Of a stretch of DNA of 39,378 bases, positions 27,846-39,207 are shown one piece after another; the stretch's first letter is position 1; each line of letters opens with the position of its first letter. The stretch is taken from the NCBI GenBank assembly GCA_016201865.1, contig JACQCA010000044.1, positions 1 to 39,378 of the forward strand, in the 5' to 3' direction. Source of the DNA: Nitrospirota bacterium (GTDB lineage: Bacteria; Nitrospirota; Nitrospiria; JACQBZ01). A program made the translations under genes and the position numbers. The notes below the pieces were generated by a model that was not told the DNA's origin, searched no databases, and worked only from the letters and a program-made list of their open reading frames with translations.

Positions 27846-27878
27846 ATGATGATCAAAGACAACCACCCAATCACATGA
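27846..27878 (+). CDS. Ten-codon upstream ORF coupled to thrS
   Basis: Encodes MMIKDNHPIT, then TGA overlapping the thrS ATG as ATGA. The predicted transcription start is only 3 bases upstream, so this small frame could be read from an almost leaderless end and hand ribosomes to thrS, which has no Shine-Dalgarno site. It contains a single Thr codon as its last sense codon, so it is not a classic Thr-rich attenuator peptide. Its existence as a translated unit is inferred from position only. Confidence 0.35.
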   Translation: MMIKDNHPIT

Positions 27879-29854
27879 CGCCTCAAAAAAGCGTTAAAGA
27901 AACCGCTGCGTCGCTGCAAGAAGTCACGGTCCGATTCCCGGACGGGACGGAGTTGCGATTTGCGAAAGGCGCCCTCCTCTCCGAGCTGCTGACCCGAGCG
28001 AATCCACGATGGGCCGAGCCGACCGTCGCACTGAAGGTCAACGGAACCGTGATGGGTCTCGGTCAACGATTGTTAGAAGCACCGGGAGGAACGGACCCCG
28101 TTCTGATCGAGCCGATCTTCTTTTCTTCTCCCGAGGGTCAGGAGGTCTACCGCCACAGCAGCGCTCATATCATGGCCCAGGCCGTGAAGGAGCTATATCC
28201 GAACGCCAAGCTGGCCATCGGGCCGCCGATCGAGGACGGGTTTTATTACGATTTCGACCTGGGACGACCCTTTACGCCCGAGGATCTTGAAAAGATCGAG
28301 CGGAAAATGAAGGAGATCATCGCTTCCCGTTATCCGTTTGAGCGCAAGGCGCTTTCCAAAAAGGACGCGATCCGTTTCTTCGAAGAAAAGGACGAACGTT
28401 ACAAAGTGGAATTGATACGGGAGCTGCCCGAGGATGAAATCGTCACGGTATATGAACAAGGCCCCTTCACCGACCTTTGCCGCGGGCCGCATGTCGTCTC
28501 CACTCAACAGATCGCGGCCTTCAAACTGCTCACCGCCGCCGGCGCCTACTGGCGCGGAGACGAGCGCAACCCGATGCTGCAGCGGATCTACGGCACCTCC
28601 TTCCCCACACAGGAGGCACTGGAAGCCCATCTGAAGCGACTTGAAGAGATCAAACGGCGGGACCATCGTCGCCTTGGAAAGGATCTCGATCTGTACAATA
28701 TGATCGACGAGATCGGACCCGGGCTGGTCATCTGGCATCCCAAAGGCGCGCTGATCCGGAAACTGATCGAGGATTTTTGGCGGGAGCAGCACCTTCGCCA
28801 CGGCTACGACTTTGTCTATTCCCCGCACATCGCGCGACTGGATCTCTGGAAACAAAGCGGTCATCTGGACTTCTATCGAGAAAACATGTATGCGCCGATC
28901 TCGATTGAAGGAATCGAGTACGAGCTCAAACCCATGAATTGCCCCTTCCATATCATGATCTACAAGTCCCATCTCCGAAGCTACCGGGACCTCCCGCTCC
29001 GGTTTGCCGAATTGGGAACCGTCTACCGCTATGAGCGTTCCGGCGTCCTCCACGGACTCATGCGGGTCCGCGGCTTCACGCAGGACGACGCCCATCTTTT
29101 CTGCCGACCGGACCAGATCGAACAGGAGATCCTCAAGGTCCTGGATTTGACGGTCTTCACTTTAAAAACGTTCGGATTCGACGAATACGAAATCTATGTC
29201 TCGACCCGGCCCGAGAAAGCCGTAGGCTCTGCTGAGAACTGGGAACGCGCCACGGCCGCACTGGAAGCGGCTCTCAGGACCAAAAACATGGCATACCGGA
29301 TTGATCCCGGAGAAGGCGTTTTCTACGGCCCCAAGATCGATCTGAAGATCAAAGATGTGCTGGGCCGGTCCTGGCAATGCACCACCGTCCAGGTGGATTT
29401 TAATCTGCCGGAGCGGTTCCATCTGTCCTATATCGGCGAGGACGGCAAAGAACATCAACCCATCATGATCCATCGCGCACTGATGGGATCGATCGAGCGC
29501 TTCTTCGGCGTACTGATCGAGCATTATGCCGGCGCCTTTCCGCTCTGGCTGGCGCCCGTCCAGATGAAGGTCATGCCGATCACAGACCGGCAGCACGCCT
29601 ATGCGCACGACGTGGCCGAGGCATTAACCGCGGCCGGTTTCCGTGTGGAAACGGACGCGCGGAATGAAAAGATCGGCCTGAAGATTCGCGAGGCCGAAAT
29701 GGCCAAGACCCCGTACATGGTCATCCTCGGGGCGCGAGAGGTCCAGGGACGAAAGCTTTCGGTCCGAAAACGAAGCGGAGAAAATGTCGGTGAACTGGAG
29801 ATCCCCTCCTTCATCGAACGGCTCAACAACGAGGTCTCAAATAAATCGGTTTAG
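27875..29854 (+). CDS. thrS: Threonyl-tRNA synthetase
   Basis: 659 residues. An N-terminal TGS domain (VTVRFPDGTELRFAKGALLSELL) and an editing domain with HSSAHIMAQAV and CRGPHV (HxxxH...C zinc-like site) precede the class II catalytic core: ELKPMNCPFHIMIYKSH with the Zn-ligand Cys, FAELGTVYRYERSG (motif 2), and HRALMGSIERFFGVLIEHY (motif 3). The C-terminal anticodon-binding domain (LWLAPVQMKVMPI) is present. It charges tRNA-Thr. There is no in-frame start upstream because a TGA occurs at 27836. It heads the thrS-infC-rpmI-rplT order common in bacteria. Confidence 0.97.
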   Translation: MTPQKSVKETAASLQEVTVRFPDGTELRFAKGALLSELLTRANPRWAEPTVALKVNGTVMGLGQRLLEAPGGTDPVLIEPIFFSSPEGQEVYRHSSAHIMAQAVKELYPNAKLAIGPPIEDGFYYDFDLGRPFTPEDLEKIERKMKEIIASRYPFERKALSKKDAIRFFEEKDERYKVELIRELPEDEIVTVYEQGPFTDLCRGPHVVSTQQIAAFKLLTAAGAYWRGDERNPMLQRIYGTSFPTQEALEAHLKRLEEIKRRDHRRLGKDLDLYNMIDEIGPGLVIWHPKGALIRKLIEDFWREQHLRHGYDFVYSPHIARLDLWKQSGHLDFYRENMYAPISIEGIEYELKPMNCPFHIMIYKSHLRSYRDLPLRFAELGTVYRYERSGVLHGLMRVRGFTQDDAHLFCRPDQIEQEILKVLDLTVFTLKTFGFDEYEIYVSTRPEKAVGSAENWERATAALEAALRTKNMAYRIDPGEGVFYGPKIDLKIKDVLGRSWQCTTVQVDFNLPERFHLSYIGEDGKEHQPIMIHRALMGSIERFFGVLIEHYAGAFPLWLAPVQMKVMPITDRQHAYAHDVAEALTAAGFRVETDARNEKIGLKIREAEMAKTPYMVILGAREVQGRKLSVRKRSGENVGELEIPSFIERLNNEVSNKSV

Positions 29855-29866
29855 TCAACCTTGCAT

Positions 29867-29888
29867 CCGAGGGTTTCGGACCTCTCGG
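29867..29888 (+). other. Hairpin in the thrS-infC gap
   Basis: CCGAGGG / CCTCTCGG arms with a seven-base loop, 13 bases before the infC ribosome site. It is not followed by a T-run. It could be an mRNA stabiliser, processing site or part of an L20/IF3 control region; the sequence alone cannot decide. Confidence 0.35.
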
Positions 29889-29900
29889 ACGACAGCATTG

Positions 29901-29908
29901 AAAGGAGG
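29901..29908 (+). promoter_or_regulatory. Strong ribosome binding site that fixes the AUC start of infC
   Basis: AAAGGAGG, eight bases before the ATC at 29917. No ATG, GTG or TTG exists in the infC frame between the TGA at 29899 and codon 45, so this site identifies ATC as the start. Confidence 0.85.
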
Positions 29909-29916
29909 AATCACCT

Positions 29917-30435
29917 ATCGCGGTCAAACAGCGTGTTAACAACGAAATTCGGGTTCGAGAAGTCAGGGTCATCGGCGCCGAGGGGGAGCAGCTGGGCGTC
30001 CTGCCCGTCCGGGATGCCATCGCCAAAGCGGTCGAGCTGGGGTTCGACTTGGTGGAGGTGGCCCCGACCTCTCAGCCGCCCGTCTGCCGCATCATGGACT
30101 ACGGAAAGTTCAAGTACGAGCAGAACAAGAAACAGCATGCAATGAAGCAGCACCAGAAGACGACGCATGTGAAAGAGATCAAATTGCGGCCCCACACGGA
30201 TAAGCACGATCTGGATTTCAAGATTCGTCATATCCGGGAATTTTTACAGGCCAGCGACAAGGTCAAGGTGACGATGATGTTCCGCGGTCGGGAAATGGCC
30301 TATCTCGATGCGGGAAAGGCCACGCTGGCCAAAGTGATCGAGGCCGTGACCGACATCGGAATGATCGAACAGCAGCCCCGATTGGAAGGGCGCAACATGA
30401 TTCTGATCCTGTCACCCAAACCTCAAACCGCATGA
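29917..30435 (+). CDS. infC: Translation initiation factor IF-3, AUC start codon
   Basis: 172 residues, the normal IF3 length, only if translation begins at ATC 29917. The N-terminal IF3 domain (VNNEIRVREVRVIGAEGEQLG, then PVCRIMDYGKFKYEQNKK) and the C-terminal domain (EIKLRPHTDKHDLDFKIRHI, then GREMAYLDAG, then MILILSPK) are both complete. The first canonical start in frame, GTG 30049, would remove the first 44 residues. IF3 discriminates against noncanonical start codons, and E. coli infC uses AUU for autoregulation; the AUC here implies the same feedback. rpmI follows after 19 bases. Confidence 0.95.
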   Translation: MAVKQRVNNEIRVREVRVIGAEGEQLGVLPVRDAIAKAVELGFDLVEVAPTSQPPVCRIMDYGKFKYEQNKKQHAMKQHQKTTHVKEIKLRPHTDKHDLDFKIRHIREFLQASDKVKVTMMFRGREMAYLDAGKATLAKVIEAVTDIGMIEQQPRLEGRNMILILSPKPQTA

Positions 30436-30454
30436 CGTGAAAGGAAAGGATCGA

Positions 30455-30652
30455 ATGCCGAAGTTGAAGACGCATAAAGGAACGGCCAAACGGTTCAAGC
30501 GGACTGGAACCGGGAAGATCCGGCACAAACAGACCGGCAAAAGCCATTTATTAACCCACAAAACCCGATCCAGGAAACGGCGTCTCAAAGGCCCGGGTCT
30601 GGTTTCGAAGGCCGATCAACAGACCGTCAAGCGCCTGTTGCCGTACGCCTGA
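30455..30652 (+). CDS. rpmI: Ribosomal protein bL35
   Basis: 65 residues from the ATG at 30455 with AAAGGA upstream. MPKLKTHKGTAKRFKRTGTG and THKTRSRKRRL are the standard bL35 signatures. It lies between infC and rplT, as in most bacteria, and in many species is controlled by L20 binding to this mRNA. Confidence 0.98.
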   Translation: MPKLKTHKGTAKRFKRTGTGKIRHKQTGKSHLLTHKTRSRKRRLKGPGLVSKADQQTVKRLLPYA

Positions 30653-30679: not shown

Positions 30680-31042
30680 ATGCCGCGCACAAAAGGAGGT
30701 CCTAAAACACGAGCCCGCCGCAAGGACCGGTTGAAACTGGCCAAGGGTTTCTTCGGCGGGAAGCACCGGCTCTTCCGCACCGCGACCGAGCTGGTTGACA
30801 AGGGTCGCCAGTACGCCTACCGCGACCGACGACAGCGGAAGCGGGATTTTCGCCGGCTCTGGATCGTGAGGATTAATGCCGCTGTATCCACCCATGGTCT
30901 TTCTTATTCGAAGTTCATGGCGGGATTAAAGAAGGCCGGCATCGGGCTGGATCGAAAAGTCCTGGCTGACCTGGCCATTACCGATCCGCAGGGTTTCGCA
31001 AAGATTGCCGAGACAGCCAAGGCAAAGCTCGCCGCGGCGTAA
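30680..31042 (+). CDS. rplT: Ribosomal protein bL20
   Basis: 120 residues, usual length. [20 protein letters not shown], then [20 protein letters not shown] and the [19 protein letters not shown] segment match bL20 end to end. A GAAGGAG site precedes the ATG. It is essential for early 50S assembly. Downstream, instead of the usual pheS, the end of an oppositely oriented archaeal-genre pheT lies 19 bases away. Confidence 0.98.
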
Positions 31043-31061
31043 CCTCGATCCGTGCGGTACG

Positions 31062-32759
31062 TCACAACACCAAGTCATCCAGACTTAATTCAAAAACCGC
31101 GCAGGGCATGGCAATCTGCCAGTTTTCGAGGACCTGTGGATGAAGTTCGCCGGTCAGGCCGACGTTGCGGCCTTCGACCACGATCTTCCCAACGCGGCCG
31201 TCGAGGAAGGACGGGTGAACAACCGGTTCCAATTGATAGGCTCGGCCCAAATAGTACATCAACAGGTCCAGGCCGGAATGAAGCTCTGAGAAGTTCGCCG
31301 CCGGATGGGCAATGAGCGCGGCCAGCTTCAGAACGGTTCGAGTCCCCTCGGGCGACTTCGCATCCGTGATGGCCGTCTCACCCGCCTCGAAGATCCGGTG
31401 GGGATAAAAACTTTTCGAACTGACGGCCTCCACCCGAAGCAGTGATGGAATAATCCCGTTCCGCAGCGCCGAGTAGGTCTGGGACATTACGTTCTCGACC
31501 GTCACCAGATCGCCGTAGCCGCTCGACGCCGGCAGGTTCATCCGCGCGACCGATTCATCAGGATTGGTCAGGATGTTCGAGATCACCTCCTGGAATCCCA
31601 TCCCGATGACGGACTCCCGCACCCGGTCCGAGAACTGCTCGATGGACGAGAGCCCTCCCACGGTGAATTCGGACGGCATCTCGGGCACAAAACTTTCGTA
31701 GCCCCTGCTGATCGCGAAATCTTCCACCACGTCCACCGGATGAAGGAGATCATCCCGATAGGCCGGAACCGAGACCGTCAGGTTCCGACCGCGGGCCTTT
31801 GCATCATATCCGTAAGCCTTCAGAACCGAGACCGCCCCCGTCATCTTGACCGGCTCTCCGAGAGCGGATCTGAAATCATGGAGGGGGACCGTCATCGGCT
31901 TGGATAGAACCAACGGCATAACGACCTTCCGGCCGAAGTCGGTGAGATACGGATAGCGCACCTCAACCGGGGTGATCTCGGCGCCGCGATCGGCGAGGTT
32001 TGCCGCGAGAATGTTCACGGTGAGAATCACCATTCGAAGGTCGGTCCCGGTCACCTCGACAAACAGATCGCGGTCTCCGACCTGGACCTCCCCGACTTCC
32101 CGGCTGTTGATGATCGGCGGAAAAGACAGTATCTTATTTTCACGGTCCACCAACAGAGGATATTCGGCCGCCTTCGATAGAATACCGGCATAGGCCATCC
32201 CTTTCGGATGTTTCTCCAAAATTGTCCTCAGCGTCATCGGCGACTCGAATCCGAGCGGGACAAACCGAACTTCATCCGGCCGAACCGTCTTGTAGGTCAC
32301 GGGGAAAACGATTTTGGCGAGACGATAAAGTCCGATCGAAACCAGAAGCCGTTTCCGGCCGAAACTCTCGCTCAGTTTCTCCTGCGTCTGAATGAGTTGA
32401 ACCAGCGTCTCATTATCAATCGTCAGCCCGCGCGCGATGCAGGCGCCGATATACGGGCGGATCATTTTCAGCGATGGGGCCGCCTCGATGACGGCCGCCG
32501 CCTTTCGCTTTCCATTATAGAAAGGATACGGAACGGCCGTCTTCAGACGATGCGTCTTGATCTGCCGGGCTACGCCTTCCACGCACCACAGATCCGGCCG
32601 ATTGGTGTCGTTCAGCTCAAGCTTTAACTCGCCGCTTGTTTTATCGTATCCTTTGATTTCACCCTTCACCAACGGCAGACGATCGGCCAGTTCCGAAATC
32701 GTGACGGATCGGCCGAGGAGATTTTCGAGATCCTTCATCTTGATCTGGATCGTCGGCAA
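31062..32759 (-). CDS. pheT: Phenylalanyl-tRNA synthetase beta subunit, archaeal/eukaryotic genre
   Basis: 565 residues, against about 800 for bacterial PheT. TTG start at 32759: MPTIQIKMKDLENLLG is how archaeal PheT begins, while the first ATG (32738) would trim seven residues. LELNDTNRPDLWCVEGVAR near residue 50 is the diagnostic N-terminal motif. B3/B4-like region about 100-260, B5 domain about 290-350 (LTVSVPAYRDDLLHPVDVVEDFAISRGY), catalytic-like domain in the C-terminal 200. There is no EMAP/tRNA-binding or FDX-anticodon-binding domain as in bacterial PheT. With PheS it charges tRNA-Phe as (alpha-beta)2. It starts 3 bases after the pheS stop. Confidence 0.95.
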   Translation of the reverse strand: MPTIQIKMKDLENLLGRSVTISELADRLPLVKGEIKGYDKTSGELKLELNDTNRPDLWCVEGVARQIKTHRLKTAVPYPFYNGKRKAAAVIEAAPSLKMIRPYIGACIARGLTIDNETLVQLIQTQEKLSESFGRKRLLVSIGLYRLAKIVFPVTYKTVRPDEVRFVPLGFESPMTLRTILEKHPKGMAYAGILSKAAEYPLLVDRENKILSFPPIINSREVGEVQVGDRDLFVEVTGTDLRMVILTVNILAANLADRGAEITPVEVRYPYLTDFGRKVVMPLVLSKPMTVPLHDFRSALGEPVKMTGAVSVLKAYGYDAKARGRNLTVSVPAYRDDLLHPVDVVEDFAISRGYESFVPEMPSEFTVGGLSSIEQFSDRVRESVIGMGFQEVISNILTNPDESVARMNLPASSGYGDLVTVENVMSQTYSALRNGIIPSLLRVEAVSSKSFYPHRIFEAGETAITDAKSPEGTRTVLKLAALIAHPAANFSELHSGLDLLMYYLGRAYQLEPVVHPSFLDGRVGKIVVEGRNVGLTGELHPQVLENWQIAMPCAVFELSLDDLVL

Positions 32760-32762
32760 AAT

Positions 32763-34346
32763 TTACCCCCGCGACCGTTTGGTCCGGATCAGATCCAAAT
32801 CGCTCGAAAAGAGATCACGGATATCCTGAATGCCCAGCGCGACCATCGCCATCCGGTCCAGACCCAACCCCCACGCGATTACGGGCACTTTGACACCCAA
32901 CGGATGCGTTACCTCCGGACGGAACAGGCCGGCCCCGCCGAGTTCCATCCATCCTAATCCGCCTGAGGCGGACGGATGTCGGACATGCATCTCGACCGAC
33001 GGTTCGGTGTACGGGAAATAGGCCGGAAGATATTTCACCTCGGTCGCATGGGCCATCTCGGTCGCGAAAAGCTTCAAAAGACCCAGCAGCGTTCTAAACG
33101 TAATCGTCTCGCCCAGAGCGATGCCCTCGACCTGGAAGAAATCCGGCGCGTGCGTCGCGTCCACCAGGTCGTAGCGGAAGCAGCGTGCGATCGAGAAATA
33201 TTTTCCGGGAATGCGTGGAGAAGCGGCCAGCGTCCGGGCCGAGACGGACGTGCCCTGGCTTCGCAGCACAAGGCGTTTGGCGCGTTCGATGTCGAAGGCA
33301 TATCGCCATCCGCGCGAGCCGGTTTTCCATCCCGTTTCGTGGGTCTTAGCGACTTGAGACGTATGCGGTTCGGGCAAAGACCGGACCGATTTGGGATGGT
33401 CCACGAAATAGACATCATGGATGTCCCGCGCCGGGTGGAACTGGGGCATGAACAGCGCGTCGCTGTTCCAGAATTCGGACTCGACCAGCGGCCCGCGCAT
33501 CTCTTCAAAACCCATCGAGACCAATTTGGTTTTGACGCTGTCGAGAAACTCGCGGTACGGATGCTTGCGTCCGGTGGCCATGCGGGACGGTTTGAGGCCG
33601 ATGTTGTATTTCCGGAACGACTTTCCAAGCCACGCTCCGTCCTTGAGCAATTCCGGCGTGAGCTGGGATACCGCTTCCTCACTAACTACTTCAGAAGTTA
33701 GTCGCTTGACGAGTTCGTACCCCAGATCGGTCAGTGCCAGCCGCTTCGACTTTTTCTCATGCTGCCTGACGACACCACGTGTTTTCCATTTCTTCTCCAG
33801 AATATCATTTAGTAGATGCTTCGATTCATCCAAAAGTTCTAATTGATTCATCGGTCCACTGGACGAGGCCAGCATCGCTAAAAGCAAGGGAAGCGCGTGC
33901 TCTATAGAATCCGGCAATGGAATTCCCGTAAGCTCCAACAGCCCGCCCTGGCCGACCCGAACGATCTCGTGATCTTTGCTCCTCAGATTTCCAATCGCCG
34001 TGCTGACTTCGGATGGGTCCATATCGGACCGCTCGCGGAGGTCTTTGATCGTCAGTTTCTTGCCCAACTGAATATCGTTCAGAATCCTCTTCTCCGGCAT
34101 TCCATGTTCCCTGTATTTTTTGCCAAGCTCAGTAATGGACACGAAAGTGGTCGCTTTTTCATCCGCGACTTTGACGACGCCTTTCGTCATCAGCCATCCG
34201 AGCGCCATCGAGAGACGGGACTCATCCAGTCCGGTCTCCTGCATCAGCTCGTGATCCCACAAAATGGGACGGACTTTGAGCGTTGAAAGTACTTTACGCT
34301 CGAGCGGATGGAGGCCGGATAGAAGTTGTGTAATTTCTTGTGACAT
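32763..34346 (-). CDS. pheS: Phenylalanyl-tRNA synthetase alpha subunit, archaeal/eukaryotic genre
   Basis: 527 residues, against about 340 for bacterial PheS. Residues 1 to about 190 hold winged-helix repeats (LHPLERKVLSTLKVRPILWDHELMQ broken up as LHPLERKVL and WDHELMQETG; later KLTIKDLRERSDMDPSEV), the DNA/tRNA-binding extension of archaeal and cytosolic enzymes. The catalytic core follows: GFEEMRGPLVESEFWNSDAL, HPARDIHDVYF, FRYDLVDATHAPDFFQVEG (motif 2) and WGLGLDRMAMVALGI (motif 3). The N-terminal coding part is AT-richer (33781-33840 has 20 G/C in 60). It has its own promoter and an AAGGA ribosome site. Confidence 0.96.
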   Translation of the reverse strand: MSQEITQLLSGLHPLERKVLSTLKVRPILWDHELMQETGLDESRLSMALGWLMTKGVVKVADEKATTFVSITELGKKYREHGMPEKRILNDIQLGKKLTIKDLRERSDMDPSEVSTAIGNLRSKDHEIVRVGQGGLLELTGIPLPDSIEHALPLLLAMLASSSGPMNQLELLDESKHLLNDILEKKWKTRGVVRQHEKKSKRLALTDLGYELVKRLTSEVVSEEAVSQLTPELLKDGAWLGKSFRKYNIGLKPSRMATGRKHPYREFLDSVKTKLVSMGFEEMRGPLVESEFWNSDALFMPQFHPARDIHDVYFVDHPKSVRSLPEPHTSQVAKTHETGWKTGSRGWRYAFDIERAKRLVLRSQGTSVSARTLAASPRIPGKYFSIARCFRYDLVDATHAPDFFQVEGIALGETITFRTLLGLLKLFATEMAHATEVKYLPAYFPYTEPSVEMHVRHPSASGGLGWMELGGAGLFRPEVTHPLGVKVPVIAWGLGLDRMAMVALGIQDIRDLFSSDLDLIRTKRSRG

Positions 34347-34377: not shown

Positions 34378-34406
34378 ACAATACCGACGGGACGGGATTT
34401 TGTCAA
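34378..34406 (-). promoter_or_regulatory. Promoter for pheST
   Basis: Minus strand: perfect TTGACA (34406-34401), 17-base spacer, TATTGT (34383-34378). Predicted start near 34371 with a 25-base leader. It lies between the arsC stop and pheS, so the synthetase genes form their own unit. Confidence 0.7.
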
Positions 34407-34417
34407 GGCAGGATGAC

Positions 34418-34768
34418 TTACAGAATTTTCTCGACGTTTTCGGGCGGGCGGCCGAGGGCGGCGCGGCCGCCTGACAGCACGATCGGCCGCTCGATCAGGA
34501 TCGGGTGCCGGACCATCGCGGCGATCAATTGGGCGCGCCGGAGTTTGGGGTTGTCGAACCGGTATCGTGAGTATACCGCCTCCTTCGTCCGCATCAGCTC
34601 GCGCGGCTCCAGGCCGAGGAGCTTTAAGATCGTGTCCAACTCTTTCTCGGTCGGGGGCGTTTTAAGATACTCGACGATCTTCGGCTCGATCCCCTTCTTA
34701 CGGATTAGCTCCAATGTCTTTCGGGACGTCCCGCAGCGTGGATTATGATAGATTGTCACATCGGCCAT
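34418..34768 (-). CDS. arsC: ArsC-family arsenate reductase-like protein
   Basis: 116 residues. VTIYHNPRCGTSRKTLELI holds the single catalytic Cys (CGTSR) of the glutaredoxin-linked ArsC/Spx fold. LKTPPTEKELDTIL and the basic region ending in HPILIERPIVLSGG-like (RHPILIERPIVL, with the Arg contacts for arsenate) support a true ArsC rather than Spx. It reduces arsenate to arsenite with glutathione or a similar thiol. No other ars gene is near; it closes the htpX-rsmB-rpe cluster, 15 bases after rpe, so a general redox role is possible. Confidence 0.9.
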   Translation of the reverse strand: MADVTIYHNPRCGTSRKTLELIRKKGIEPKIVEYLKTPPTEKELDTILKLLGLEPRELMRTKEAVYSRYRFDNPKLRRAQLIAAMVRHPILIERPIVLSGGRAALGRPPENVEKIL

Positions 34769-34783
34769 GGCGCGTTTCCTGAT

Positions 34784-35452
34784 TTACCCGATCGCGGTTC
34801 GCATCTTCTGGATTGTGTCTTTATAGTCCTTACTCTGGAAAATGGCCGAGCCGGAGACGAAGATATCCGCGCCGGCCTGTGCGATGGCCGCGACATTTTC
34901 GACCTTGATCCCGCCGTCGATTTCCAATTCGACTTTTGCGCCGCGCTCATCGATCATCTTTCGGGCCCGTCGGAGTTTTTCCAAAATAGACGGTATAAAA
35001 CTCTGTCCGCCGAATCCGGGATTGACCGACATGATCAGCAATAGATCCACTTCGCCCAAGATCTCCTCGACGCTGGAGAGCGGCGTCGCGGGATTCAAGG
35101 TCACGCCGGCCTTGACGCCCTCTTCCTTGATCGACTGGATCATCCGATGGAGATGAGGGCAGGTCTCGACATGAACCGTGATGTAGTTGCTGCCGGCTTT
35201 GATGAAGTCGGAGATGAAATCGTCCGGATTCGTCATCATCAGATGGACGTCCAGCGGAAGCCGGGTTACTTTTCGGATGGCCTTCACGATCGGCGGACCG
35301 ATCGTGAAGTTCGGCACGAAATGGCCGTCCATCACATCGACATGGATCATGTCGGCGCCGGCCTCGGTCACTCTGGCGATCTCATCTGCCAGATGGGCAA
35401 AATCGGCCGAGAGGATGGACGGGGCTATTTTTCTGGACTTGGGCGGCGTCAT
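34784..35452 (-). CDS. rpe: Ribulose-phosphate 3-epimerase
   Basis: 222 residues, standard length. APSILSADFAHLADEI, HVDVMDGHFVPNFTIGPPI (metal-binding His and catalytic Asp), HLMMTNPDDF, MSVNPGFGGQSFI and LEIDGGIKVENV (second catalytic Asp) are all intact. It interconverts ribulose-5-phosphate and xylulose-5-phosphate in the pentose phosphate or Calvin cycle. It follows rsmB by six bases; rsmB-rpe adjacency is common in several bacterial phyla. Confidence 0.97.
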   Translation of the reverse strand: MTPPKSRKIAPSILSADFAHLADEIARVTEAGADMIHVDVMDGHFVPNFTIGPPIVKAIRKVTRLPLDVHLMMTNPDDFISDFIKAGSNYITVHVETCPHLHRMIQSIKEEGVKAGVTLNPATPLSSVEEILGEVDLLLIMSVNPGFGGQSFIPSILEKLRRARKMIDERGAKVELEIDGGIKVENVAAIAQAGADIFVSGSAIFQSKDYKDTIQKMRTAIG

Positions 35453-35458
35453 GACGGC

Positions 35459-36808
35459 TCACGCTCCTTTCGTCGCACGGATCAGTTTTGCGGCAAAGAA
35501 CTGATCCATTTGATACGGATTCAATAACGTGTTCAGGTAGCCCTCCGGCGTGATCAGCTCCGGCGATTCCGGCCAGAGCGATTGAAGGGATACGTTCCGG
35601 AAATCGGGATGCCCTGCCAGAAACGCCCCGATGACGGCTTCATTCTCTTCCGGTTCGGTGGTGCAGGTACTGTACACCAACAGCCCGCCGTGTTTCAAGA
35701 GCGGCGCGACCGCCGCCAGGATTTTAAGTTGGGCTGCGGCCATCGTCCCGATCACGGCCTCGGCTTTGTACCATTTGGCCTCCGGATTCCGTCGCAGGAT
35801 TCCCAGTCCGGAGCACGGGGCATCGACCAGTATCCGGTCGTACGGAGCTTTTCCGAGAGGAGCCGGATCGCCGGTTAGATCTGCCACGATCGGCCGGATC
35901 GAGGCGAGACTGAGACGCCCGGCGTTCTCGACAATCCGCTCCAGTCGTTTCGCGCCGGCATCCGCCGCCACGACCTCACCCCGATCGCCCATCAACTCGG
36001 CCAGATGCGTGCTCTTCCCACCGGGCGCGGCGCAGGCATCCAGTATGCGTTCTCCAGGTTTCGGATTGACCGCAAGACCGACGAGCTGCGCCGCCTCATC
36101 CTGTACATAGAAATCCCCTCGTTGATAGGCCGGCAACTCGGTGAGATGCGCAACGCCTCGAAGCATCAGGCCGGACGATGAAACCCGACAGTACGTCACC
36201 TCGATTCCGGCCCGTTTTAACTCGGCCGACAATGCATCGCGCGTGGTTCGAAGCGTATTGACACGAACCGTCACCGGAGGAATCTCATTATTCGCGGCGC
36301 AGAGCGCGGCGGTCCGTTCCGCCCCCAGCCTCGGGAGCCATCGCTTCACAAGCCATTCGGGATGGGAATATTTGACCGAGAGATGGAGGACCGGATCGTC
36401 GGCCGGAGCCGGAAGCGGAATCGTTTCGGCACGCGCCATCGCCCGCAGAACGGCATTCACAAATCCGGCAATCGCGCCTTCCCCAAGTGTTTTGGCTAAT
36501 CGGACTGACTCATTGACGGCGGCCGAGGCCGGCACCCGATCCAGAAACAGAATCTGGTAGGCACCCAGCCGCAGTAGATTTTTCAGTTTGACGGATTGAC
36601 GGCGGCGGTGGGTACTGAATCGGCCGATCGCCCAGTCCAGGTAGCTCCGCCGGCGCAGTACGCCATAGACCAGTTCGGTGATGAAGGCGCGGTCAAGGGG
36701 TTTTAAACCGGGAGAACGGAGCCCGCGCTCCAGAACGAGGTCGGCCTGCTTCGCCGCTTCGACAAGACAAAGGATATCCCAGGCTGCTCCCCGCGCATCG
36801 GGTTTGAT
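35459..36808 (-). CDS. rsmB: 16S rRNA m5C967 methyltransferase RsmB, likely AUC start
   Basis: 449 residues if begun at ATC 36808; the first canonical start, GTG 36535, would delete 91 residues. That missing part is real RsmB: an NusB-like N-domain reading IKPDARGAAWDILCLVEAA, then LDRAFITELVYGVLRRR and LLRLGAYQILFLDRVPASAAV. The frame is closed by the htpX TAA just upstream, and AGAGG lies five bases before the ATC. The catalytic domain has DACAAPGGKSTHLAELM (SAM), DAPCSGLGILRRNP and YSTCTTEPEENE with the two Cys of m5C methylases. It methylates C967 of 16S rRNA. Confidence 0.9.
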   Translation of the reverse strand: MKPDARGAAWDILCLVEAAKQADLVLERGLRSPGLKPLDRAFITELVYGVLRRRSYLDWAIGRFSTHRRRQSVKLKNLLRLGAYQILFLDRVPASAAVNESVRLAKTLGEGAIAGFVNAVLRAMARAETIPLPAPADDPVLHLSVKYSHPEWLVKRWLPRLGAERTAALCAANNEIPPVTVRVNTLRTTRDALSAELKRAGIEVTYCRVSSSGLMLRGVAHLTELPAYQRGDFYVQDEAAQLVGLAVNPKPGERILDACAAPGGKSTHLAELMGDRGEVVAADAGAKRLERIVENAGRLSLASIRPIVADLTGDPAPLGKAPYDRILVDAPCSGLGILRRNPEAKWYKAEAVIGTMAAAQLKILAAVAPLLKHGGLLVYSTCTTEPEENEAVIGAFLAGHPDFRNVSLQSLWPESPELITPEGYLNTLLNPYQMDQFFAAKLIRATKGA

Positions 36809-36817
36809 CGCGGCCTC

Positions 36818-37675
36818 TTATGCCGCCCGACGGATCCCGGCCATCGCCTCAAGCCGCGCGATGCGGGCCTCCATCGGCGGATGCGTCGAGAAGAGCGACA
36901 GTACGCCGCCCCCCGTCAACGGGCTGACGATGAACAGATGGGCCGTGGACGGATTGGCCTGCATCGGAATCCGTTGAGCGCCCAGATGAAGCTTCCGAAG
37001 CGCCTCGGCCAGCATCAGGGGCTGGCCGCAAAGCTTCGCGCCCCCCTCATCGGCGTCGTATTCACGCGAGCGCGAGACGGCCAGATGGATCAGCGTCGCC
37101 GCGATCGGTGCCAGGATCATCACGGCGATCTCGGCCACAAAACTCAGCGGATGCCGCTCTTCGCGGTCCCCTCCGCCAAAGAGCATGGACCACTGCAGCA
37201 TCTGGGCCAGGTAGGAAATCGCGCCGGCGATCGTAGCGGCCACAGTGCTGATCAGGATGTCGCGGTGGGCAACATGGGAAAGTTCGTGCGCCATCACGCC
37301 CGTCAGCTCTTCTTCCGTCAGGACGCGAAGGATCCCCGTGGTCGCCGCGACGGCCGCATGGGCCGGATCACGGCCGGTCGCAAAGGCATTGGGCGCATCA
37401 TTCTCGATCAGATAGACCTTCGGCATCGGCAGTTGAGCGCGCGTGGCCAGGTTCCGGATGATCCGGTGCAGGACCGGCGCATCGGCCTCCGAAACCTGCT
37501 TGGCCCCGTACATCCTCAGCACGATCTTATCCGAAAACCAGTAAGCCCCGACGTTCATGACGAGGGCGATCGCAAACGCGACCGTGGCGCCGGATTGCCC
37601 CCCGATCAGGGAGCCGACCACGACGAACAAAACAGCGAGCGATGCGAGGAAAAAAGTTGTTTTGAGTTTGTACAT
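36818..37675 (-). CDS. htpX: Membrane zinc metalloprotease HtpX
   Basis: 285 residues. Two N-terminal helices ([36 protein letters not shown]) precede [20 protein letters not shown] and the M48 zinc motif [12 protein letters not shown] (HExxH). A second hydrophobic pair and [13 protein letters not shown] provide the third zinc ligand Glu. HtpX degrades damaged inner-membrane proteins and is envelope-stress related. AAGGAGG precedes the ATG. The palindrome over its promoter suggests repression. The next gene, rsmB, is in the same frame with only TAA between. Confidence 0.96.
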
Positions 37676-37695
37676 GACCTTAAAAAACCTCCTTC

Positions 37696-37722
37696 AGAAT
37701 TTAAAAAGCATGTTTTAATTCT
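37696..37722. promoter_or_regulatory. AT-rich palindrome over the htpX promoter (possible operator)
   Basis: AGAATTTAAAA and TTTTAATTCT surround a six-base centre, giving a nearly perfect 27-base inverted repeat. It covers most of the -10 box (37718-37723) and the transcription start, the usual place for a repressor site. It is much AT-richer than its surroundings. Confidence 0.45.
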
Positions 37723-37747
37723 ACATGAACCCAAGACCTTAATGCAA
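37718..37747 (-). promoter_or_regulatory. Promoter for htpX
   Basis: Minus strand: TTGCAT (37747-37742), 18-base spacer, TAGAAT (37723-37718). Predicted start near 37711, leader about 36 bases containing AAGGAGG. It begins 3 bases after the fmt stop. Confidence 0.55.
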
Positions 37748-37749
37748 CT

Positions 37750-38682
37750 TCATTGACCCAGCACCACGCCCGGCTCGACCGAATGCCCCGCTAAAAACTC
37801 GCGCACACTCATCCGTCGGCCGTTCTCCGGCTGGAGCTCCAGAATCTCGAGAAGGCCCTGACCCGTCGCGACCGAAACCCCCTCCCGTCCGGTTTTAAGG
37901 ATCGTCCCAGGCGTTTCATCGCTCATTTTATCCTCCGGCGCCGCTTTCCAGATACGCCAGCGCTCATCCTGATAAAAGGTGTAGGTTCCGGGCCAAGGGG
38001 AAAGCCCGCGGATCCGGTTCACGATCATAACGGCCGGCCGGGCCCAGTCAATCTCGCCCGACTCCTTCCCAAGCATGGGCGCCATTGTTGCCGCGGAATG
38101 ATCCTGCGGAATCGGGACAACGTCTCCGGCCTCGATCCCCTTCAGCGTACGGAGCAACAGGTCGGCGCCGCGCTCGGCCAGCCGGACCGAGAGGCTTCCG
38201 GCCGTATCCTCCGGAAGGATCGAGACCCGCTCATGAAGGAGGATGTCGCCTGTATCCATCCCGGGGTCCATCCGAATCGTCGTTATTCCGGTTTCCGGCT
38301 CGCCGTTGATGATCGCCCACTGAATCGGAGCGGCGCCGCGATATTTTGGCAGAAGCGAGGCATGGAGATTGACGCATCCGCGCGGAGGCAGATCGAGGAT
38401 TTCGGGCGGAAGGATCCGGCCGAACGCAACGACCACGATGACGTCCGGGCCGAGATCGCGGAGATGGCCGATGAAGGCGGGGTCTTTGATTGTGTCGGGC
38501 TGAAGGACCGGCAGTCCGAACCGCTCGGCCATCACTTTTGCAGGCGGAGGCGCGAGACGCCCCCCGCGGCCTTTGGGCCGATCCGGCTGAGTGATGACGG
38601 CCAGAATCGCGTGTCCCGACTGATGCAGCGCATTTAGGCTGGGCAGCGCGAATTCCGGCGTTCCCATGAAGATCAGTCTCAT
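37750..38682 (-). CDS. fmt: Methionyl-tRNA formyltransferase
   Basis: 310 residues, usual length. RLIFMGTPEFALPSLNAL is the N-terminus, VITQPDRPKGRG holds the tRNA-contact loop, and CVNLHASLLPKYRGAAPI contains the catalytic Asn-His region. The C-terminal OB-like domain (RGLSPWPGTYTFY...) is present. It formylates Met-tRNAi. It starts 3 bases after def; these paired functions (adding and removing the formyl group) are commonly adjacent. Confidence 0.97.
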   Translation of the reverse strand: MRLIFMGTPEFALPSLNALHQSGHAILAVITQPDRPKGRGGRLAPPPAKVMAERFGLPVLQPDTIKDPAFIGHLRDLGPDVIVVVAFGRILPPEILDLPPRGCVNLHASLLPKYRGAAPIQWAIINGEPETGITTIRMDPGMDTGDILLHERVSILPEDTAGSLSVRLAERGADLLLRTLKGIEAGDVVPIPQDHSAATMAPMLGKESGEIDWARPAVMIVNRIRGLSPWPGTYTFYQDERWRIWKAAPEDKMSDETPGTILKTGREGVSVATGQGLLEILELQPENGRRMSVREFLAGHSVEPGVVLGQ

Positions 38683-38685
38683 CTA

Positions 38686-39201
38686 TTATCTCGCTTCAGC
38701 CTTTATGCGCTTCTTGAGGCGCTTGAGATACATCTGCCGTTTCAGACTGCTCAAACGGTCCACGAACACCATTCCGTCGAGATGATCCATCTCATGCTGG
38801 AGCAGTCGGGCCATCAGCCCCTCGCCTTCGACCGTAATTTCTTTTCCGTTTCGGTCGAGCCCCCTGACGGCGACTTTATTCGCCCGAGCCACCTGGGTCC
38901 GATAATCCGAAACGCTTAAGCATCCCTCTTCACCCGTTTGCGTCCCCGATTTTGAGACGAACTCCGGATTGATCAGGACGCCGGTGTGACGGGGATGATC
39001 GTCCCCTTCTTTCAGGTCGTACACGAACAGCCGCAGCGACCGGCCGATCTGCGGCGCGGCGAGACCCAAGCCCGGTGCGGCATACATCGTCTCGAACATG
39101 TCGTCGATCAGCGCCTGCAGCTCGTCGTCGAATTCGGCGACCGGTTTGGCTTTTTCTTTCAGCACCGCATCCGGGTGTTCTCGTATCGGAAGAACCGCCA
39201 T
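38686..39201 (-). CDS. def: Peptide deformylase
   Basis: 171 residues from the ATG at 39201; a TTG two codons earlier is unlikely because it lies upstream of the predicted transcript start. GLGLAAPQIG (motif 1), EEGCLSV (motif 2 with the metal Cys) and LLQHEMDHLDG (motif 3, HExxH) are complete. It removes N-formyl groups from nascent proteins. No ribosome site is present; the promoter's -10 box ends six bases before the ATG, so the def-fmt mRNA is predicted to be leaderless. This is notable for an enzyme tied to initiator-tRNA chemistry. Confidence 0.97.
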   Translation of the reverse strand: MAVLPIREHPDAVLKEKAKPVAEFDDELQALIDDMFETMYAAPGLGLAAPQIGRSLRLFVYDLKEGDDHPRHTGVLINPEFVSKSGTQTGEEGCLSVSDYRTQVARANKVAVRGLDRNGKEITVEGEGLMARLLQHEMDHLDGMVFVDRLSSLKRQMYLKRLKKRIKAEAR

Positions 39202-39207
39202 GGTCAA

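Follow-up and report, generated by a model that had tools for sequence, protein, structure and literature searches.

The window, by which we mean the whole 39,378-nucleotide stretch of DNA that was analyzed, comes from an uncultured family (f1) of the class Nitrospiria (Nitrospirota). Its minus strand encodes the two subunits of a PheRS, namely an alpha subunit of 527 aa (pheS, 32763..34346) and a beta subunit of 565 aa with a TTG start (pheT, 31062..32759); the open reading frames, coordinates and strands agree with those of the first-pass annotation. Facing pheT on the plus strand is an operon of thrS, infC and rpmI (27875..30652) that closes with rplT (30680..31042), behind which lies the slot occupied by pheST in sister families. 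The stop codons of rplT and pheT converge across a gap of 19 bp (31043..31061), in which a scan found no terminator-like hairpin. Upstream of pheS, again on the minus strand, is a string comprising an arsC-like gene, rpe, rsmB, an htpX-like gene, fmt and def (34418..39207), whose order is kept in Nitrospiria and f13 and partly in f20. The small ArsC/Spx-like gene between rpe and pheS (34418-34768, minus strand) is seen in the window's family and was undetected at that place in other families. On the opposite side of the locus, infC (29917-30435, plus strand) has an apparent ATC start following a AAAGGAGGA site; in the list of ORFs with ATG, GTG or TTG starts it begins at 30049, 44 codons late. 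IF3 genes that regulate themselves typically use a rare start codon of this kind.

Just past the stop codon of the ArsC/Spx-like gene sits a promoter-like -35/-10 pair, TTGACA-17-TATTGT (34378..34406, minus strand), for which a role as the private promoter of the pair had been proposed. As a bare consensus, TTGACA/TATTGT occurs at chance level (2 found versus 1.6 expected); the site upstream of pheS is nevertheless conserved in position in 4/4 f1 genomes examined, G001, G003 and G004 among them. No comparable site is present in the 150 bp upstream of pheS in the examples from Nitrospira (G028), f9 and f12, where pheS closely follows rpe. Since the site is kept in f1 and missing in these three examples, a private pheS promoter is plausible for f1 and would not represent a class-wide trait.

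Both subunits proved to be of the archaeal/eukaryotic genre, as had been judged earlier from their lengths and motifs. PheS is matched over its full length by the long-PheS model NF003210/PRK04172 (564 bits, aa 12-524) and by PF01409 (282 bits, aa 246-521), while PheT matches TIGR00471 (pheT_arch) end to end with 494 bits, against a cut-off of 283 bits. With the bacterial model TIGR00472 it attains 111 bits, below the cut-off of 403 bits, and this match is confined to the C-terminal half that is shared by both forms (model positions 409-692 of 798 only). Passing the archaeal cut-off and failing the bacterial one mark PheT as a beta subunit of the archaeal/eukaryotic form. No Pfam match to the EMAP (B2) or B8 domain was found in its 565 residues, and the nearest solved structures are the P. 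horikoshii PheT (2cxi) and the eukaryotic cytosolic PheRS (3l4g, 8s8b). The traits given for archaeal/eukaryotic PheRS are an N-terminal extension of the alpha subunit, a beta subunit lacking B2 and B8, and an editing-site Asn in place of His (PMC3275996); as far as sequence tells, the window PheRS has them all. For instance, PheT N218 aligns to Asn217 of P. horikoshii PheRS, the editing residue that replaces the bacterial editing-site His (PMC3275996), and is invariant in 41/41 homologues, as is the editing-site residue S212 (41/41). The motif LELNDTNRPDLW, which the first-pass annotation had pointed out in PheT, is indeed present, and the alignment of the family shows no variation at D51, N53, R54, P55 or D56. 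We consider it confirmed that a complete archaeal/eukaryotic-form PheRS is encoded by pheS-pheT of the window.

The N-terminal extension of PheS covers aa 1-215 (33702..34346, minus strand) and is winged-helix-like, AT-richer and fast-evolving, as judged from sub-threshold Pfam matches, GC content and alignments. Several winged-helix Pfam models match aa 11-124, all below cut-off, and the length of the protein (527 aa) together with the NF003210 match from aa 12 points to a long alpha-subunit extension with putative DNA-binding-type folds. The N-terminal third of pheS has 51.2% GC versus 59.1% in the core, with GC3 at 60 versus 71, and this had been offered as a sign of transfer or of a later domain exchange. 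The compositional difference is real; it is not a sign of exchange, because the region is homologous across the relatives (about 23-69% identity, where the core shows 68-91%) and the same lower GC3 at the pheS N-terminus is seen in 27/32 of them. As the region aligns throughout the family and the GC tendency is general, a domain exchange was ruled out, and relaxed constraint accounts for the AT-richness with no exchange needed.

The pair is the only PheRS of the genome, in which we detected one PheS core and one PheT; a search for a second or bacterial-type PheRS, the latter being the check that the first-pass annotation had proposed, found none in this 95% complete assembly. As the cell's sole PheRS, the predicted (alpha-beta)2 enzyme would charge the bacterium's own tRNA-Phe, and editing of Tyr-tRNA-Phe would be expected at its B3/B4 site.

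Among named relatives, the closest PheT proteins, at 81-86% identity, belong to Nitrospiria/Nitrospirae MAGs, followed by those of Nitrospira, including N. moscoviensis and N. defluvii, and of Ca. Manganitrophus. All intact PheT proteins among 40 Nitrospiria relatives are archaeal; the three genomes that fall below the cut-off comprise one with a contig-end fragment (G006), one with the gene split over contig ends (G033) and a 65%-complete one with no match (G020). Beyond Nitrospiria, archaeal PheT occurs in families f13, f14, f17, f20 and f21, the last of which we take to be probably Leptospirillum. The bacterial form is found in f15, f16, f18, f19 and f22-f33 except f25, whose single, incomplete genome has no PheT match. 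In f15 and f18 (L238, L239) the bacterial PheT is about 810 aa long, is matched end to end and keeps EMAP/B2; in those f22, f23, f27 and f28 genomes for which a model alignment was made (L240-L243) it is about 700 aa long and lacks EMAP/B2, with comparably short lengths in f16, f19, f26, f29, f31 and f33. Plasmids and viral contigs were searched for further archaeal-form PheT and yielded none. RpoB (~1725 aa) and RpoC (~1590 aa) of f21 (L303, L304; G048, G056) both contain large insertions and are far longer than those of other Nitrospirota (~1310-1360 and ~1390 aa, respectively). A locus titled Nitrospinota (L060, JACZVJ010000002.1) carries the Nitrospiria PheRS and gene order, and is probably a misnamed MAG.

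This distribution supports the view that the archaeal-form PheRS is an old, inherited trait of the class and not a recent gain by one genome. A recent transfer into the window genome or its genus could draw on the GC content of the pheS N-terminus (51% against 59% in the core); it is refuted by the vertical distribution and must be deemed extremely improbable, given that the form is class-wide, that families represented by two or more rows form, almost without exception, one clade each in the archaeal-form PheS+PheT tree, that gene order is shared and that the GC tendency is common in relatives. The notion of a transfer peculiar to this genome, or recent, thus has to be abandoned in favor of a class-wide, older character that Nitrospira has in common with Leptospirillum-like and further Nitrospirota lineages. 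At the level of this phylum the genes do fall in a broad, vertically inherited clade of bacteria, an outcome that the first-pass annotation had named as counting against its idea.

The neighborhoods of these genes also follow a consistent pattern. rplT and pheT are head-on in 61/80 named loci; the archaeal pair is co-directional behind rplT in 1/80 (L114), and in the remaining 18/80 rplT is out of reach, in some for want of contig. The archaeal pair is also head-on to rplT in f14, f20 and f21. Head-on pairs are tied to the rpe-rsmB-fmt-def string, with pheS placed after rpe (rsmB, htpX, fmt and def being variably complete) in most Nitrospiria, f13 and f20; neither an rplT nor an rpe neighbor was seen in the f17 loci examined. 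Bacterial pheST, on the other hand, stands co-directionally and directly behind rplT in 15 loci from 10 families, as it does in Legionella and E. coli. Hence, the rplT-downstream locus of the relatives bears out the earlier proposal that the bacterial pair is gone from its usual slot. That it was replaced in place holds for the window's class as regards the loss, but not in the literal, same-strand sense, the archaeal pair here being convergent with rplT. Only G172 and G173, two genomes of one family, were found to have a foreign pair that keeps both the slot and the orientation of the native one; there the archaeal genes complete the canonical series thrS-infC-rpmI-rplT-pheS-pheT, all co-directional. 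Because G173 has the same order as G172, the arrangement is not an assembly accident, and the displacement in this family is one in situ, in the native slot and orientation. As a separate observation, the native bacterial pheST of f15 (L137, L135, L141) lies outside the rplT operon and another gene now follows rplT; in L137 ruvB/queH-like genes lie near the relocated pair.

A rooted tree of rpoB+rpoC with 2670 columns (LG+G4), covering 40 Nitrospirota and 6 outgroups, shows the base of the phylum as a fork without resolved order, and recovers a Thermodesulfovibrionia-like clade of 19 rows (94/99), f17 as sister to f15 (100/93) and G172 as sister to the f22-f33-type families (100/99). The bacterial PheS+PheT of the Thermodesulfovibrionia-like clade form one group against the 6 outgroups (94/91) and branch as f18, (f19, f15) and (f22 plus kin), which is compatible with the rpoBC order. 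Both the single grouping and the compatible order favor the bacterial form as the native one in the clade, which would make f17 and G172 lineages that switched. The slot genes ThrS+InfC+RplT likewise place G172 with the bacterial-form f22-f33-type families (92/91), and in the archaeal-form PheS+PheT tree f17 joins G172 (100/99). The deep order of the latter tree lacks resolution with or without a P. horikoshii root, the sole archaeal sequence in the trees being P. horikoshii PheT residues 2-348.

We consider it probable, taking the account as a whole, that an early acquisition from outside and displacement of the native pair were followed by vertical descent and two later switches. An archaeal-form pair, foreign to the bacterial PheRS lineage, would have entered the ancestor of Nitrospiria, f13, f14, f20 and f21 or a still earlier one, and would have displaced a native pheST that stood co-directionally behind rplT. 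Its descent since then would have been vertical, with the pair placed behind rpe and head-on to rplT in most lineages. Two lineages of the Thermodesulfovibrionia-like clade, f17 and the G172 family, would later have had their native bacterial pair displaced by this form as well, the latter precisely at the canonical slot. The interdomain origin, which the first-pass annotation had already put forward, and the old displacement are supported, and the replacement was apparently repeated within the phylum; the interdomain direction, the single early acquisition and the order of events at the root are what we infer from the above.

An alternative history would make the archaeal form ancestral to all Nitrospirota; the bacterial form would then have returned at the base of the Thermodesulfovibrionia-like clade, with f17 and G172 keeping or regaining the archaeal form. 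Such a history gains some room from the archaeal-form PheRS of most deep lineages in the phylum and from an rpoBC base that is not resolved; yet it demands that the regained pair hit exactly the co-directional slot behind rplT that is seen in 10 families, Legionella and E. coli. We therefore regard it as unlikely, and as less likely than an old displacement followed by two later ones. Several independent transfers from archaea to different Nitrospirota lineages likewise seem improbable to us. The grouping of f17 with G172 at 100/99 speaks against them, although the neighborhoods of both differ from those of Nitrospiria and the deep archaeal-form order is not resolved. Moreover, the head-on rplT position common to Nitrospiria, f14, f20 and f21 and the rpe neighbor common to f13 and f20 argue for one common event in all these lineages, as in the history of early acquisition that we prefer.

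The tRNA-Phe genes recovered from 22 genomes with the archaeal form share a GAA anticodon, and their T-loop and discriminator are bacterial. Position 20 is U in 20/22, C in 2/22 and G in 0/22; U20 and U59 are elements of the E. coli tRNA-Phe, while G20 is the yeast and A. pernix element (PMC9976931). No switch of tRNA-Phe to the archaeal/yeast G20 alongside the enzyme was found in these genomes. Because U20, the bacterial T-loop and the discriminator are kept in archaeal-form genomes, the enzyme appears to have been exchanged while tRNA-Phe did not follow. We tentatively suggest that the archaeal form may have displaced the native bacterial PheRS at least three times in the phylum, once in the canonical slot, with a tRNA-Phe lacking G20. 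At the 31-39 pair (L324 and other loci), genomes with the archaeal form have C-G, and several with the bacterial form have A-U. A tRNA-Phe pattern exclusive to bacterial-form genomes was considered and rejected, as it came from this pair and is missing in several bacterial-form genomes; since other bacterial-form genomes also have C-G, the pair is not tied to the enzyme form.

Spirochaetes are the usual example of archaeal-genre PheRS in bacteria; in the present case it characterizes an entire class of environmentally important organisms, among them Nitrospira and Ca. Manganitrophus, and probably Leptospirillum as well, and offers a rare derived character for deep Nitrospirota phylogeny. A literature search on the PheRS of Nitrospira, Nitrospirota and Leptospirillum found no report, most subscription papers being beyond reach, so that a prior one is possible; single-genome annotations of such PheRS exist, because public family models already name these proteins. 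The archaeal/eukaryotic and bacterial PheRS/tRNA-Phe pairs have been described as not cross-reacting (PMC3275996). The Thermodesulfovibrionia-like clade provides close pairs of organisms with a bacterial versus an archaeal enzyme and nearly the same tRNA-Phe, which makes this stated orthogonality directly testable. The interest of these systems rests on the repeated displacement combined with an unchanged tRNA-Phe: if true, the at least three displacements would amount to naturally repeated experiments on how an archaeal synthetase adapts to a bacterial tRNA.

When xenologous gene displacement in situ occurs in a bacterial operon, a homologue of foreign origin takes the native gene's slot. The G172 and G173 loci resemble this, with the foreign pair co-directional in the native slot, whereas the Nitrospiria pair, on the opposite strand, linked to rpe and beside the slot, does not represent a simple operon swap. 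As an enzyme, the window PheRS is like that of P. horikoshii and the eukaryotic cytosol (2cxi; 3l4g, 8s8b) in its long PheS, its short PheT without B2/B8, and N218 and S212. It differs from archaeal/eukaryotic PheRS in coexisting with a tRNA-Phe whose sequence is bacterial (U20, U59), and from the human cytosolic enzyme in that PheS position 444, which our own alignment equates with human Asn410 (PMC3275996), is Phe, as it is in 40/40 homologues. In Spirochaeta, Treponema and Borrelia, the archaeal-genre PheRS has alpha subunits of 513-528 aa and beta subunits of 514-573 aa (Andam and Gogarten 2011, PMC3191353), and this form is known to be fixed in spirochaetes (PMC3191353; PMC2939571, the latter citing Woese et al.). 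The Nitrospirota systems parallel these in that both subunits are archaeal in form and size (527 and 565 aa in the window), in being a fixed, shared derived character, in the retention of the bacterial form by sister families, and in the absence of a bacterial PheRS from the window genome (95%-complete assembly). They differ from the spirochaete case in concerning Nitrospirota, in spanning a whole class and five other families, in the position of the pair, which lies behind rplT and faces it or, in one family, occupies the canonical slot exactly, and in apparently having arisen by more than one displacement.
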